A stretch of 40,527 nucleotides of DNA from an uncultured Bacteroidales bacterium (GTDB taxonomy: Bacteria; Bacteroidota; Bacteroidia; Bacteroidales; Bacteroidaceae): contig CALZJF010000018.1 in the NCBI GenBank assembly GCA_945787885.1, positions 1 through 40,527 on the forward strand, read 5' to 3'. Of this stretch, positions 28,619-39,571 are shown piece after piece. The notes beneath the pieces are model-generated. The model did not search any database, was not told where the DNA came from, and saw only the letters and a list, made by a program, of their open reading frames with translations. The first letter of the stretch is position 1, and each line of letters begins with the position of its first letter. The translations under genes were made by a program, and so were the position numbers.

Positions 28619-28648
28619 GGGGGGGGGAAGAAACCTTCCTCCCCTTGA
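28619..28648. repeat. G9 run in a G/C-rich hairpin
   Basis: Nine G (28619-28627) followed by AAGAAACCTTCC and CCCC form a hairpin just past the end of the hexosaminidase gene (stop at 28668). It is intergenic, so slippage here would not change a protein. It may help end that transcript, though no T-run follows. Confidence 0.55.
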
Positions 28649-35001: not shown

Positions 35002-35537
35002 TTACCCGATATATTTTTGCAATATGTCTCTTTTACGCTGTGGGCAAGACTGCATTACTCTTCTTGCCTCAGATATGATGGTTTCATATTCACGCACCTT
35101 TTCTATTATGGACATTTGCTCTTCCCTATCGATTAATGGGATTTGAAATCTGAGGATATGGTTTTTGTTGCCGCGTGGCATTTTTAGACCCTTTACATCT
35201 GTCATGACATAGTCGAAGAACTGTTGTCGGCGCAAAGTGTTATAGAGGAACTCTGGGATTATTCTCTCATCCTTCACCCGAATGACGAGCACATCAGGAC
35301 TGCACCCTCCATCACGGTCTGCAAGCCATAGCTTCTTCAAATAAGGACGAATATTTGAGAGCAGGATGTCGCCCTTGCAATACTCCACAACGGTATCTGT
35401 TGTTGGAGTACCATCGTACTCCAACATTCCTTCACAGTTTTGTAGCAGGTTGTCGGTGCTGACATAACTTCCTTTGTCTATGGAAGAAAAGACTATGCGA
35501 GCGGTGGCATATTCGCAAATGTCGCTAATCTGAATTA
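35002..35537 (-). pseudogene. second target-recognition domain of the RM enzyme, out of frame in this sequence
   Basis: Directly after the G9 tract the minus strand is open in the next frame for about 178 codons. The translation begins VIQISDICEYATARI and is a type I HsdS-like half: KGDILLSNIRPYLKKLWLA (TRD strand pattern, near 65-85), CSPDVLVIRVKDE, MPRGNKNHILRFQIPLID and a C-terminal coiled region (about 145-175) ending RKRDILQKYIG. It has no credible start of its own; the only upstream one is a GTG inside the preceding domain. It is best seen as the C-terminal part of the gene at 35525-38761, joined to it whenever the tract has 8 (or 11) G. The domain shows no stop codon or other decay, which suggests that it is still under selection. 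Confidence 0.85.
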
Positions 35538-38500
35538 CCCCCCCCCATATTGGACTTCGCCACAACTTCGAGACGGTCAAAGATGTCACTTATCTTCTTC
35601 CTATAAGTTTCAATAGTCATGCGGCTGGTGTTGTATTCCTTATCAACGGCTTCACATTCCTTCACAATCTGTTGCTGGATAGAGGGAGGAGGCACAACAA
35701 TCTGGATGTTGGCAAGATTTGCCAAAGAAATAGACGGTGGATTAGATTTAGAGGAAACCTCCCCCAATTCGACATATTCTTGAAAATAGATGAATAAATA
35801 CTTTGGAAGCAAAATATTCTTATCTTTTACCCATAAGGCCATTGTATTGTTGTCAATAGCAGCCCTTCTACCCAAAATTCTCTTTTTATTTGTATAAATA
35901 GCCATTCCGACTTTAGGAAAAACAATGGTGTCTATCTCAAATATAGTAGCCTTAAGCACATCAACTAATAATTTTTCTTCAACATAGTTGTTGGAAACCT
36001 TCATTGTTTGCTGATTCTCAGGATTATTCATATCACTTACCTTAAAAAACGGAACATCCCCTGTGTTTGTGTTACCCTGATAAACTGGTTTGAAAGTATC
36101 ACCTCCTTTTATATTTGCAAGAATACCAAGTCTTTCTTTTGGATATTTTGAGCGGATTTCTATGGATTCACCCACAAATGTTTTTAATTCTTTATCAAAT
36201 TCCGCCCTTGAGAAATCCATCATATCCTTTAGCCAATAAGTCTTAGCATACTTTTCAAGATGAGCTGGTACAGAAGTCACAGTGCCGTTACCAATAAACG
36301 AATTGCGAATGGCAGATGCCAACGTGCCACGAGCAAATCGATCATCGGGATTGTAAAGCATACCGCCAGGCTGGTTGATGATGATGCCCTCCGCACCCTT
36401 GCGGTTGCTCCAGTCATAACCCAGGAACGATTTCTGCTCTTTGTTGTCGACAGGCGACGTAATGACAAGAGTGCGTTGCTCTCTTGCCAAAGCAAAATAG
36501 TATAGTTTATCACGCTCAACTCTAAGTGCAAACTCATAGAATTTTTCCTTGCGAATTCTTTTTTCCTCTTCTGCAGTGCATTTTTTTGGCAATGTGATTG
36601 ACATTTGTGCAAAAGCTTCGGCATAGACTTTCAGGTAGCTGTTTGCATATAGTTTCTCCCAATCCATTTCTTTGCGGATGAAACGGATGTATTCCCCCTC
36701 CTCTATTTTCTGATGTTGGAGATATTCAGCCAAGAGTTGCCAGTCGGTGAAATTTGCCAAATCGTTGCCACTCATGATTGCATCAACACTGTCTTTTGTA
36801 AGTTCTGCAATGCGGGGAGGCTCATTGTAACGTTCAAGGAAAAGGGTCACGGTATTTGTACCTGTGGCACCGAATGTTTTGCTGCCGAAACTGACGATAG
36901 CACGAATATAAAAGTTTTGCAGCAATTCTTCTCGAGCAGCCATGTAGCTATTCGATGAATTGCTGAGAATAGACGCTGGCAGCACAACAGCTGCCAGACC
37001 TTGCGGGCGCAGCAGTTGCGAGATACGTTCAACGAAAAGAGTCTCTATCTCTTTGCCGTCGTTAGTGACTATGTCGAGTATGCGGAAGGCATTATTGCGG
37101 AGTTTGAGATGCTGCTTGAATCCACTTACAGAATAAGGAGGGTTGGCAACAAGGATGTCAAACGTTTCAGCTTCTATGCCTTTATCTGCATAGTTTTCCA
37201 GTCCGTCACCAAAGATGATGTTTGCACCGCCTGCACCATTCATGAAGAGTGAAATCTTGGAAACACGTGCGAGACGATAGTCTTTTTCCACACCATAGAT
37301 ATGCTTCTCCACCCATGAGTTTTCGCTTTCCCTGCGTACAGCATTGATAGCTTCAACCGCTTCCGTCAGGAAATGTCCCGCTCCGCAAGCATAGTCAATG
37401 ACATTGGGCAGCCCATGATCAGAAATATATGTCTGTAAAGGCAAACTATCCCATATAAAACGAGTGATAGGCATAGGGGTAAAAAACTGACCTTCGTTCT
37501 GCTTGAATCCCTTGTTGAGCAATTGCTCAAACAGGTCACCCAAAAACTGATGCTTACTGGGATAGACGATGCGATAAGGTTGGAACAACTGTACTACTTC
37601 TACAAGTATCTTGCCGTTCTGGAAGAATAATTCTTCATTGTGTACATCCTTGAAGGCGAAGTCGTTGTTGGAATAGAATTTCAGGATACGGATAGTCTTG
37701 TTGAGCTCCTCGATGGCACGCTTGCGCTGCTGCCCCGTATATTGCATAAACAACCGCTCTGCATAATCGGCTTCGACATAGAATATCTTTTCTCTCATGA
37801 ATTCCTCCATACCTTGGGTGTGAAGGCGTTGAAGGCGGTCTTGAAGACTTTCGTAGGTGTCAGTGCCTTGTTTGTATTGGAACTCAACCTCCTCAAAATT
37901 CTGTTTCTTAATCTCGTCCACCAGTTTGCAGATGAAGAGAGCCACCAATCTGTTGAAGGCATTCTCCTTGTCAGAAACGTTATTGTGGCGCAGAATCTCC
38001 TCAAAACGGTTTACTATTTTATCATCGGGAGTGAAGTCGCGTAGCTTCTGTTTGCGCAAAGGGGGTATTCCAATATTATATGCCTGACTGTCTTCATCAA
38101 AGATTAGGTTATCCAGCCATGTTTTGTTGTATGTCTCGCACCATACATCAAAGCGTTCGGCGTCATTTTTTGCATTACGGTAAATCAGAACATCCTTGTC
38201 TTTCTTTGCCATTTCCTCAATGTTCTTGTCGTCAGAACAAGAAATTACCTGTGACTTTACCTGCACTTGTCCATCTTTCCAATCAGAAGCATAGAGAGCC
38301 AGCCAGCGTGTGGCATTTTCCTGCTGCCAATAACTGAAAAGTTGTCCTCCGTATTCCTCGGTGTTCTTGATTTCCTTGTTATATTCAGAGCCTGCTGTCT
38401 TGCATTCTATGATTATCAACACATCGCCTTGTTCGTCTCTCACAACTATGTCAGCCTTGCCACCTTTTGCGTCTCGTCCAAGTTGCCATTTAGGTTCCAA

Positions 38501-38761
38501 TTCAATATGTTCTGGACGATAACCTTTATCCAAGAGACGGCACACGCATTCGAAGACCACAAAATTCTCATTGTGAGAAAAATTGCTTGTAGTCCTATCA
38601 TTGACAATTAGTCCTTCTGTCTCGGGATAGACGAGCTTCTCATTGTCAAAATCCACATGAACACTGCATGAATCGTATTTTTTAGTGAAATATTCCCCAA
38701 CAGAATTTTTCTCAAAATCCAGATTCAAGAGGACATCTTTTAAATTATCTTTTGTTATCAT
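35525..38761 (-). CDS. single-chain restriction-methylation-specificity enzyme (type IIG/type I-like), frame ends after first recognition domain
   Basis: The 1078-aa product from ATG 38761 has three parts. A PD-(D/E)xK nuclease domain is at about 1-200 (E71; D104 in GKADIVV; E119 and K121 in IIIECK), like the N-terminus of HsdR. An N6-adenine methyltransferase domain at about 370-700 has motif X GQFFTP at 424, motif I DYACGAGHF at 456 and motif IV NPPY at 540-543. A target-recognition domain from about 875 (KERLGILANIKGGDTF) ends in the helical spacer ETYRKKISDIFDRLEVV. No helicase domain is present, as in type IIG enzymes. It should both cut and methylate DNA at a site set by the recognition domain. 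As read it ends MGGGNSD just after a G9 tract. The frame is open 19 codons further upstream (38818), but MITKDN at 38761 is the natural start. Base composition is more AT-rich than in the flanking genes, which suggests transfer. Confidence 0.88.
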   Translation of the reverse strand: MITKDNLKDVLLNLDFEKNSVGEYFTKKYDSCSVHVDFDNEKLVYPETEGLIVNDRTTSNFSHNENFVVFECVCRLLDKGYRPEHIELEPKWQLGRDAKGGKADIVVRDEQGDVLIIIECKTAGSEYNKEIKNTEEYGGQLFSYWQQENATRWLALYASDWKDGQVQVKSQVISCSDDKNIEEMAKKDKDVLIYRNAKNDAERFDVWCETYNKTWLDNLIFDEDSQAYNIGIPPLRKQKLRDFTPDDKIVNRFEEILRHNNVSDKENAFNRLVALFICKLVDEIKKQNFEEVEFQYKQGTDTYESLQDRLQRLHTQGMEEFMREKIFYVEADYAERLFMQYTGQQRKRAIEELNKTIRILKFYSNNDFAFKDVHNEELFFQNGKILVEVVQLFQPYRIVYPSKHQFLGDLFEQLLNKGFKQNEGQFFTPMPITRFIWDSLPLQTYISDHGLPNVIDYACGAGHFLTEAVEAINAVRRESENSWVEKHIYGVEKDYRLARVSKISLFMNGAGGANIIFGDGLENYADKGIEAETFDILVANPPYSVSGFKQHLKLRNNAFRILDIVTNDGKEIETLFVERISQLLRPQGLAAVVLPASILSNSSNSYMAAREELLQNFYIRAIVSFGSKTFGATGTNTVTLFLERYNEPPRIAELTKDSVDAIMSGNDLANFTDWQLLAEYLQHQKIEEGEYIRFIRKEMDWEKLYANSYLKVYAEAFAQMSITLPKKCTAEEEKRIRKEKFYEFALRVERDKLYYFALAREQRTLVITSPVDNKEQKSFLGYDWSNRKGAEGIIINQPGGMLYNPDDRFARGTLASAIRNSFIGNGTVTSVPAHLEKYAKTYWLKDMMDFSRAEFDKELKTFVGESIEIRSKYPKERLGILANIKGGDTFKPVYQGNTNTGDVPFFKVSDMNNPENQQTMKVSNNYVEEKLLVDVLKATIFEIDTIVFPKVGMAIYTNKKRILGRRAAIDNNTMALWVKDKNILLPKYLFIYFQEYVELGEVSSKSNPPSISLANLANIQIVVPPPSIQQQIVKECEAVDKEYNTSRMTIETYRKKISDIFDRLEVVAKSNMGGGNSD
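35538..35546 (-). repeat. G9 homopolymer in coding sequence, probable phase-variation tract
   Basis: Nine G on the coding (minus) strand follow AAT AT. With G9 the frame reads MGGGNSD then stop; with G10 it reads MGGG then stop; with G8 it reads MGG then VIQISDICEY and runs on to 35002. The tract lies precisely between recognition domain 1 plus spacer and recognition domain 2. Confidence 0.88.
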
Positions 38762-38801: not shown

Positions 38802-39355
38802 TTAGTCACTTGCCTCATCTAAGAGCAGTTTCCAAGACCCTCCCTTAGCAGGTCCTATGCGTTTTATGATGCCTTTCTGTTGGAGTGCCTTTAGATTGCT
38901 CTTTACCCCATCTTCTGACAATGAACCCAAGTTAGACGCTATTTCTTTACGTCCTGCATGTGGATTCTGAAGCAGAAACTCGATAATTCCTTTCTGTATA
39001 GGCGTAATCTCAATGTCTTGTTTCTGGGTAGTTTCTGGGTAGTTTCTGGGTAGTTTCTGGGTAGTTCCGCTTCCTTCCTGGTCTGTTTTCTGGCCACTTG
39101 TGATGGCCTCTTGCCCTTTTCTTGCCCTTCTTCCAATACATTAGCCCATACAGAGGTTTTCATGATGAAGGCGACCGGATGATATTAAGGTTCCTTCGTG
39201 CCAATGGCTGAGAGTTTACGGCACATACGGTCAATGCCCTCGATACGACGAGTCTTGTAGGATATACCTACGGCTATCGGTTCAATGTGAATGCTCTTGC
39301 AGTCGAATGTCTGCCCCTCGGGCATCTGACGTATCTCTTCGATAGTATATCTCAT
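38802..39355 (-). pseudogene. AlbA_2/Schlafen-type ATP-binding protein remnant with winged-helix C-terminus
   Basis: Three pieces of one known architecture lie in order. First, MRYTIEEIRQMPEGQTFDCKS (from 39355; quoted as MRYTIEEI then MPEGQTFDCKS) resembles the AlbA_2 N-terminus. It runs directly, with the core of several hundred residues missing, into RRIEGIDRMCRKLSAIGTKEP, the C-terminal part of that family. An in-frame TAA at 39185-39187 interrupts KEP and YHPVAFIMKTSVWANVL. After an 11-bp repeat the frame shifts, and the other frame reads TTQKQDIEITPIQKGIIEF, EIASNLGSLSEDGVKSNLK and GIIKRIGPAKGGSWKLL, a clear winged helix, to the TAA at 38802. With three repeat units instead of four the last two pieces would be one frame. 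A 74-aa frame from ATG 39163 is all that is open now. It ends 40 bases before the RM gene. Confidence 0.72.
39021..39064. repeat. 11-bp tandem repeat, four perfect units, frame-shifting
   Basis: TTTCTGGGTAG occurs at 39021-39031, 39032-39042, 39043-39053 and 39054-39064 with no mismatch. On the coding (minus) strand the unit is CTACCCAGAAA. As 11 is not a multiple of 3, each gain or loss changes the frame; loss of one unit joins the MKTSVWANVL frame to the winged-helix frame. Confidence 0.93.
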
Positions 39356-39362
39356 ATTCTTT

Positions 39363-39557
39363 TCACTCCGCTTTGGTATGGCAAATCAATTCGTGTATAT
39401 CCACATTGAGAGTCTCAGCTATCTGTGCCAATGTCTTCAAATCTGGTTGTGCGTGGTTGTTGCACCACTTCGACACTGTAGCAGAGTCCTTATGCAATGT
39501 CTTGGCTATCCATTTGCTCATAAAACCTCTTTCTGCCAATACGGTCTCTATACGATT
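39363..39557 (-). pseudogene. XRE-type helix-turn-helix regulator, start codon missing
   Basis: The minus strand reads NRIETVLAERGFMSKWIAKT, then LHKDSATVSKWCNNHAQPDL and KTLAQIAETLNVDIHELI, a full XRE/Cro-type DNA-binding fold, to the TGA at 39363. Immediately before Asn (39557) is TAA in frame, where an ATG would be expected, so the normal start seems lost. Use of the internal ATG at 39521 gives 52 aa and would cut off helix 1. Small XRE proteins next to RM genes often act as controller proteins. It precedes the ATP-binding remnant by 7 bases. Confidence 0.72.
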
Positions 39558-39571
39558 TTAATCTGCCTACT

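Follow-up and report, generated by a model that had tools for sequence, protein, structure and literature searches.

A poly-G tract between two target recognition domains as a probable specificity switch in a family of single-chain restriction-modification enzymes

A change of specificity through a homopolymer has been published for the Type IIG genes HP1353-HP1354/JHP1272 of Helicobacter pylori (HpyAXVI and Hpy99XIV), with both states of JHP1272 found in H. pylori derivatives of one strain, and therefore the principle considered here is not new (PMC3936762). In these genes the homopolymer determines whether a C-terminal recognition domain is present and which motif is methylated, as we propose for the enzyme of the window (the whole stretch of 40,527 nucleotides analyzed here). 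In contrast, the H. pylori tract is poly-C, the enzyme is MmeI-like, the extra domain modifies an already complete target recognition domain (TRD) and a separate tract acts as an ON/OFF switch, whereas the family of the window has two HsdS-type TRDs, a coiled-coil linker and a distribution over several phyla (PMC3936762). A G13/G14 tract is described as well, in HP1471/JHP1364, a BcgI-like S subunit of H. pylori (PMC3936762). The hsdS gene of the Type I system NgoAV is phase variable through poly-G, and its truncated S protein, with a stop at position 201, is described as active on another motif (PMC6789123). There, as in the window gene, a change in poly-G shortens the specificity protein, but the NgoAV S protein is a separate subunit, whereas the nuclease, the methyltransferase and both TRDs of the window family lie on one chain (PMC6789123). 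The Campylobacter jejuni gene cj0031 is, like the window gene, of Type IIG with a G tract (G9/G10), but it is described as an ON/OFF gene and many strains are reported without the tract (PMC4889913). The Type IIB enzymes TstI and AloI share with the window family a single polypeptide for cutting, methylation and both halves of bipartite recognition, but TstI is a homotetramer in whose cited description no tract is mentioned (PMC4027205). Finally, an engineered fusion of the methyltransferase and a half S subunit of the CC398 Type I system is reported to dimerize and to methylate a palindromic site; it has the layout of the short form discussed below (methyltransferase plus half S), but it is man-made and lacks the fused nuclease (PMC6158711).

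In this study, we report the organization of a Type IIG/IIB-like gene in the genome of an uncultured Bacteroidales bacterium and the comparison with its homologues. The window corresponds to contig 18 in a draft assembly of 96 contigs and 2.7 Mb, and the features of the locus are provided in Table 1.

Table 1. Features of the enzyme locus (positions in the window).
Feature	Position	Strand	Basis
ORF1, mechanical frame, 1097 codons	35525-38818	-	Open reading frame
One-TRD form as assembled, about 1078 aa	35525..38761	-	PADLOC PDLC03624, E 2.8e-290; start from homologue matches
HsdR-N-like nuclease segment, D..ExK	38354..38530	-	Pfam HSDR_N_2, 24.8 bits (cut-off 25)
N6-adenine methyltransferase domain (DYACGAGHF, NPPY)	36821..37552	-	Pfam N6_Mtase, E 2.7e-34
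TRD1, HsdS-type target recognition domain	35633..36133	-	Pfam Methylase_S, E 2.5e-11
CR1 coiled-coil helix at the end of TRD1, contains VKECEAVDKEYNTSRMTIETYRKKISDIFDRLEVV (approximate boundaries, overlapping the Methylase_S match)	35561..35680	-	Helix of the L021 model; motif comparison
G9 tract, putative slippage site, CR1/TRD2 junction	35538..35546	-	Homologous tracts in 40/82 genes
Stop region directly 3' of the tract, one stop per off phase	35525..35537	-	Stop enrichment test
TRD2 and CR2, next frame, open, unjoined in the G9 state	35002..35537	-	PADLOC S-subunit model, E 4.4e-31
Second (TRD2) open frame, full extent	35002-35589	-	Open reading frame

The one-TRD form has a nuclease-like N terminus followed by the N6-adenine methyltransferase, TRD1 and the CR1 helix. 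Its likely start was placed at 38761, giving a chain of 1078 aa, because Met 20 is the residue at which homologue matches begin most often (36/80 homologous loci). D123, E138 and K140 of P0001 show no variation across the 5 rows of alignment A1 and the 14 rows of alignment A3, the motif I and NPPY patterns are present in all 82 homologous genes analyzed, and ORF1 also matches Pfam Eco57I. To judge from N6_Mtase and Methylase_S above their cut-offs, a marginal HSDR_N_2 match and the presence of ExK, motif I and NPPY, endonuclease, methyltransferase and recognition functions would reside on one polypeptide, as in Type IIG and single-chain Type IIB enzymes. It is a single chain, not the separate HsdM, HsdS and HsdR of a Type I system; the window enzyme would work like an NgoAV-type half-S switch and is not a member of that type. 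Almost the full length of ORF1 matches positions 1-1071 of the 1271 of the Type IIG model PDLC03624, while the TRD2 frame, which scores 18.7 bits with Methylase_S (below the cut-off of 22), matches its positions 1172-1269; many Type I S subunits match this frame better. Since the TRD2 frame matches the C-terminal end of PDLC03624, the enzyme family has two TRDs and the window copy is cut between them. In this regard, the two-TRD layout of Type IIB was found in the in-frame homologues, L021 and L066 each containing two Methylase_S stretches, while in the window TRD2 lies in the other frame.

The initial annotation of the window had described a G9 tract that ends the enzyme frame in front of an intact second recognition half. 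The tract was found exactly where it had been placed, as C9 on the forward and G9 on the coding strand, and ORF1 ends directly after it, with the tail SNMGGGNSD and a stop. The TRD2 frame is open for 178 codons from the tract, and the joined frame of 1252 aa calculated for the removal of one G is arithmetically correct. G9 and G10 had both been said to stop at once, and the two off-phase stops are indeed immediate, at 7 and 4 codons when counting starts at the ATG containing the first G of the tract; the distance of five codons given earlier deviates only trivially, by about one codon.

Named genome contigs were scanned with a five-sequence alignment and the best 80 of 170 relatives were kept, giving, with the window and the viral contig L020, a set of 82 genes. 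Distant viral loci (L101-L106), distant relatives (L002 and L006-L019), later finds (L127, L128-L129) and duplicate contigs (L001, L003, L004, and L005) stand outside this set. A run of 7-12 G was present in 40 of the 82 genes, a share that refers to the closer relatives only, and the 40 runs all fall where TRD1 meets TRD2, including that of L064, whose match ended early and whose tract is 551 bases past the match end. The 305,761 sense bases of the 82 genes contain 40 G-runs of at least 7, compared with 3.8 ± 2.0 (maximum 9) in 50 codon shuffles that retained the tracts' own GGG codons and in which runs were counted anywhere; C-runs of at least 7 were absent from the same sense bases. Among the 42 genes without a tract of at least 7, the contig stops before the junction in L075 and in L022, the core of which is 93% identical. 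In 15 more distant relatives (L002, L006-L019; 36-44% identity), some of whose loci may stop short of the junction, no tract was found.

According to record titles, the tract-bearing genes belong to Bacteroidota, Bacillota, Actinomycetota, Pseudomonadota (Moraxella caprae DSM 19149) and Synergistota and, according to MAG labels, also to Planctomycetota and Saccharimonadota. The initial annotation had missed this spread over several phyla, as well as the published homopolymer switch of specificity in the H. pylori Type IIG gene. Five of the tract records are not marked as MAGs, their isolate status being judged from the titles: two of Actinotignum schaalii and those of Leucobacter sp. OH1287, M. 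caprae DSM 19149 and Tissierellia bacterium KA00581. Most homologues are MAG contigs, a few of them probably misbinned or moved recently: L029, labeled Saccharimonadota (Saccharibacteria), sits among Prevotella genes in the tree, and L048, labeled Prevotellaceae, among genes of Actinomycetota. When the tract label was mapped on a quick LG+G4 tree of the enzyme core, 19 changes were required, of which at least 15 fall on well supported branches, and none of 500 label shuffles was as low (mean 27.6 changes). Therefore, the tract appears to come and go, with some clustering.

A single fixed length in all homologues had been named by the initial annotation as the result that would speak against slippage. 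Lengths range instead from G7 to G12 (G7 in 3 genes, G8 in 13, G9 in 11, G10 in 9, G11 in 3 and G12 in one), in and out of frame, and the G8, G9 and G10 forms that it had singled out all occur at the same junction. Among the 40 tract genes, 18 read through in frame into TRD2 and 11 stand in each of the two off phases, an equal three-way split not being rejected (chi-square p 0.29). The family thus presents a coding homopolymer of variable length with both states among relatives, as expected of a slipped-strand phase-variable gene. One case of a one-G strain difference was found, in A. schaalii: in strain FB123-CNA-2 (L065), with G11, the frame includes TRD1 only and measures 1063 codons from the match start, while strain AS1054 (L066), with G10, has a frame of 1,228 codons, and over the first 9,125 bp of the two loci there are only three differences, namely two substitutions and the tract G. 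In a second, more diverged pair, L020 (G8, off) and L039 (G9, in frame), the bases beside the tract are the same and the genes share about 87% nucleotide identity. In L069 the frame is maintained after the tract, but it stays open for no more than 93 codons.

In 35/40 tract genes, a stop follows within 8 codons of the tract in each of the two off phases, whereas in the other five one off phase runs on for 39-60 codons. In tract-less full-length genes, in which the comparison point was the match end and not an aligned junction, this was so in 9/34 within 8 codons and in 15/34 within 12 codons (Mann-Whitney p 8e-6, tract versus tract-less genes). Inside the TRD2 part of the tract genes, 38% of 478 points stop within 12 codons. 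In all 22 off-state genes, TRD2 has remained open over 168 codons or more, and therefore the off states are young or reverting. Among the tract-less relatives, L050 and L094 have an open core and a frame that ends at the junction, with no downstream TRD match in the 2,515 and 914 bases that follow, respectively; in L043 the open core also ends at the junction, and a 15-residue remnant of the end of TRD2 is left. In L035 and L058, TRD2 is retained but out of frame, next to a tract that is broken or short, while in L042 the gene is interrupted once more ahead of TRD1 and TRD2 has decayed to a remnant of 39 residues. The core motif patterns are present in the 40 tract genes and in the six tract-less genes ending at the junction, L042 included, the sole exception among the 82 genes being L087, whose sequence starts inside the gene. 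Given the position of the tract, the clean stops and the relatives that end after TRD1, the short form is best taken as a product and not just as a broken gene, and it looks intended.

The predicted model of L021 has a helix at residues 179-223 and a strand from 228, with the tract (codons 225-228) between them. The tract is thus predicted to lie in the short CR1-TRD2 link of an HsdS fold, and the short form retains TRD1 together with its helix, a placement like that in NgoAV. The HsdS-like fold of L021 matches PDB entries 3okg, 5ybb, 7vru and the S subunit of BsaXI (8w0p); a structure of the whole gene product P0001 was discarded (mean pLDDT 59.7, pTM 0.46). By sequence, BsaXI RM (PDB 8w0p) is also the best solved relative of the RM part (E 6.9e-37, or 3.2e-51 with a profile). 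S.BsaXI matches the S-like fold of the window family, but in BsaXI the S protein is a separate subunit. We know of no phase variation in BsaXI. A CR1 signature, the pattern of which was picked post hoc, was present in 32/40 tract genes and 6/6 tract-less genes ending at the junction, compared with 5/36 others; when the tree was taken into account, the contrast over 12 independent pairs was borderline (median p 0.0625, range 0.008-0.69). Its occurrence with a tract or a junction end would fit self-pairing of the helix.

We propose the following mechanism. The full chain would comprise the nuclease, the N6-adenine methyltransferase, TRD1, the CR1 helix, TRD2 and the CR2 helix, resembling a Type I enzyme without a motor, and slipped-strand mispairing would alter the length of the G tract in the codons of the CR1-TRD2 link. 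One of the three phases would yield the whole chain, with an asymmetric bipartite site recognized by TRD1 and TRD2 together; the other two would lead to a stop within a few codons, so that the chain ends neatly after CR1. Two short chains would most likely form a dimer held by the CR1 helices, with a symmetric TRD1-TRD1 site as its target, and the cell would swap the specificity of methylation and cutting rather than just switch the enzyme off. Slippage as the toggle is well supported by the data above. An active short form is likely because the M-half-S fusion methylates a palindromic site (PMC6158711) and the truncated NgoAV S protein is active (PMC6789123), and by this analogy the one-TRD form would have another, probably palindromic, specificity. 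Its dimerization and an altered methylome would be expected to follow, slippage may also occur within the window genome's own population, and the switch may affect gene expression. Taken as a whole, the proposal that slippage between a two-TRD enzyme and a paired one-TRD enzyme swaps specificity seems to us rather probable.

The alternative that survives best, unlikely in our opinion, is plain ON/OFF switching, in which slippage is real, the one-TRD chain is inactive and the glycine linker merely tolerates extra residues. The in-frame tract encodes linker glycines, to which additions would be harmless, and cj0031 is regarded as ON/OFF (PMC4889913). Nevertheless, an ON/OFF gene gives no reason for clean stops in both off phases (35/40), for the open core of 22 of the 40 genes in their off phases, for the tract-less L043, L050 and L094, which end with an open core at the junction, or for the lack of any tract nearer the start of the gene (0/40), and it must be considered that the engineered M-half-S fusion is reported to be active (PMC6158711).

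Homopolymers can promote slippage of other kinds as well, and an RNA polymerase or ribosome slipping on the G-run could yield both forms from one genotype, a mixed product that would suit an oligomeric enzyme. Such recoding may blur the switch, but as an explanation of the locus it is highly improbable: a fixed shift predicts one preferred off phase, while the phases seen are 18, 11 and 11, and the tract length itself differs between near-identical genes. That the window genome simply holds a sequencing or assembly error or a decaying pseudogene is scarcely credible, for, in spite of its origin in a 96-contig draft and a contig that itself ends in C10, the same tract occurs in the five records not marked MAG, the core motifs are intact and TRD2 is open.

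Returning to the specificity swap, the toggled TRD2 belongs to two families in 33/40 tract genes, compared with 9/32 tract-less full-length genes (Fisher 4e-6, uncorrected for relatedness), and with the cut-off unchanged there are 14 clusters of TRD1 and 8 of TRD2. The pattern is as if a few standard second halves were plugged in and out of enzymes with a varied TRD1. Additionally, the TRD1s of seven genes (L024, L027, L031, L064, L072, L073, and L092) match the TRD2s of other genes with 50-69% identity over 115-144 residues; recognition domains therefore seem to move between the two positions, which suggests an exchange of TRD modules. More tentatively, and with somewhat less than even confidence, we suggest that a self-pairing CR1, the poly-G link and a TRD2 cassette form a module that spreads horizontally with many gains and losses, flipping enzymes between a homodimeric form with a palindromic site and a form with an asymmetric bipartite site, modification and cutting together.

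In the literature searched, outside of which subscription titles largely lie, no single-chain Type IIB/IIG enzyme with a poly-G tract between its two TRDs was found. As far as this literature shows, what is new is the tract in the inter-TRD link of a single-chain HsdS-like enzyme, fixed in 40 genes of several phyla, and the pair of strains displaying both states. If the short form is active, slippage of one base would re-aim the shield and the scissors of the restriction system together, and the joint switching would avoid the self-damage expected from an uncoupled change. Commensals of several phyla would then be able to alter reversibly their barrier to phages and plasmids, along with their methylome. 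It would also be explained why assemblies often show such genes as "broken", and motif prediction for these genes would be needed for two states.

Searches in other collections were also carried out. The plasmid collection gave no match at the DNA level and three distant records (29-34% identity), and the phage collection no relative at the limit used; with only distant matches or none, neither provided a within-species series. Relatives were found in 2/58 genomes of the genus (E 1e-50) and in 18/399 of the family (E 1e-100), the window's own included in both counts. In the order (393 genomes, E limit 1e-200), one relative besides the window was found, L127, whose frame of 889 aa starts inside the gene and reaches the two-TRD end, without G- or C-runs of at least 6. 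The viral contigs contained one tract-bearing gene, L020, which is the same as L128 (IMGVR_UViG_3300007961_000135); it has a second frameshift inside TRD1, and in its best segment it shares 92% identity with the query whose first member is the Ruminococcus MAG gene L039. Its presence in a viral collection indicates that the R-M switch may travel on mobile DNA.

In the window genome, 33 overlapping G9 matches correspond to 26 distinct tracts. Among the 24 that were examined (three in the window and 21 elsewhere, leaving out those of C79 near 229 and C92 near 6), no other G9 between two long frames of one gene was seen, and several sit at the ends or starts of long frames. A second G9 of the window, at 28619-28627, lies away from the enzyme and is overlapped by short or doubtful frames only. 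The contig ends in C10 (40518-40527), and in the same genome the first 14 bases of contig C92 include a run of nine; poly-G may therefore break the assembly. Just upstream of the enzyme, a broken frame of the reverse strand, with a tail that by eye is winged-helix-like, contains at 39020-39066 the 11-bp tandem repeat GTTTCTGGGTA (4.3 copies, 100% matches), and since 11 is not a multiple of three, changes in copy number would shift the frame. In addition, a short XRE-type helix-turn-helix-like frame containing SATVSKWCNNHAQPDLKTLAQIAETLNVDIHELI lies upstream of the enzyme at about 39366-39570 on the reverse strand and, to judge from this resemblance only, could be a controller.
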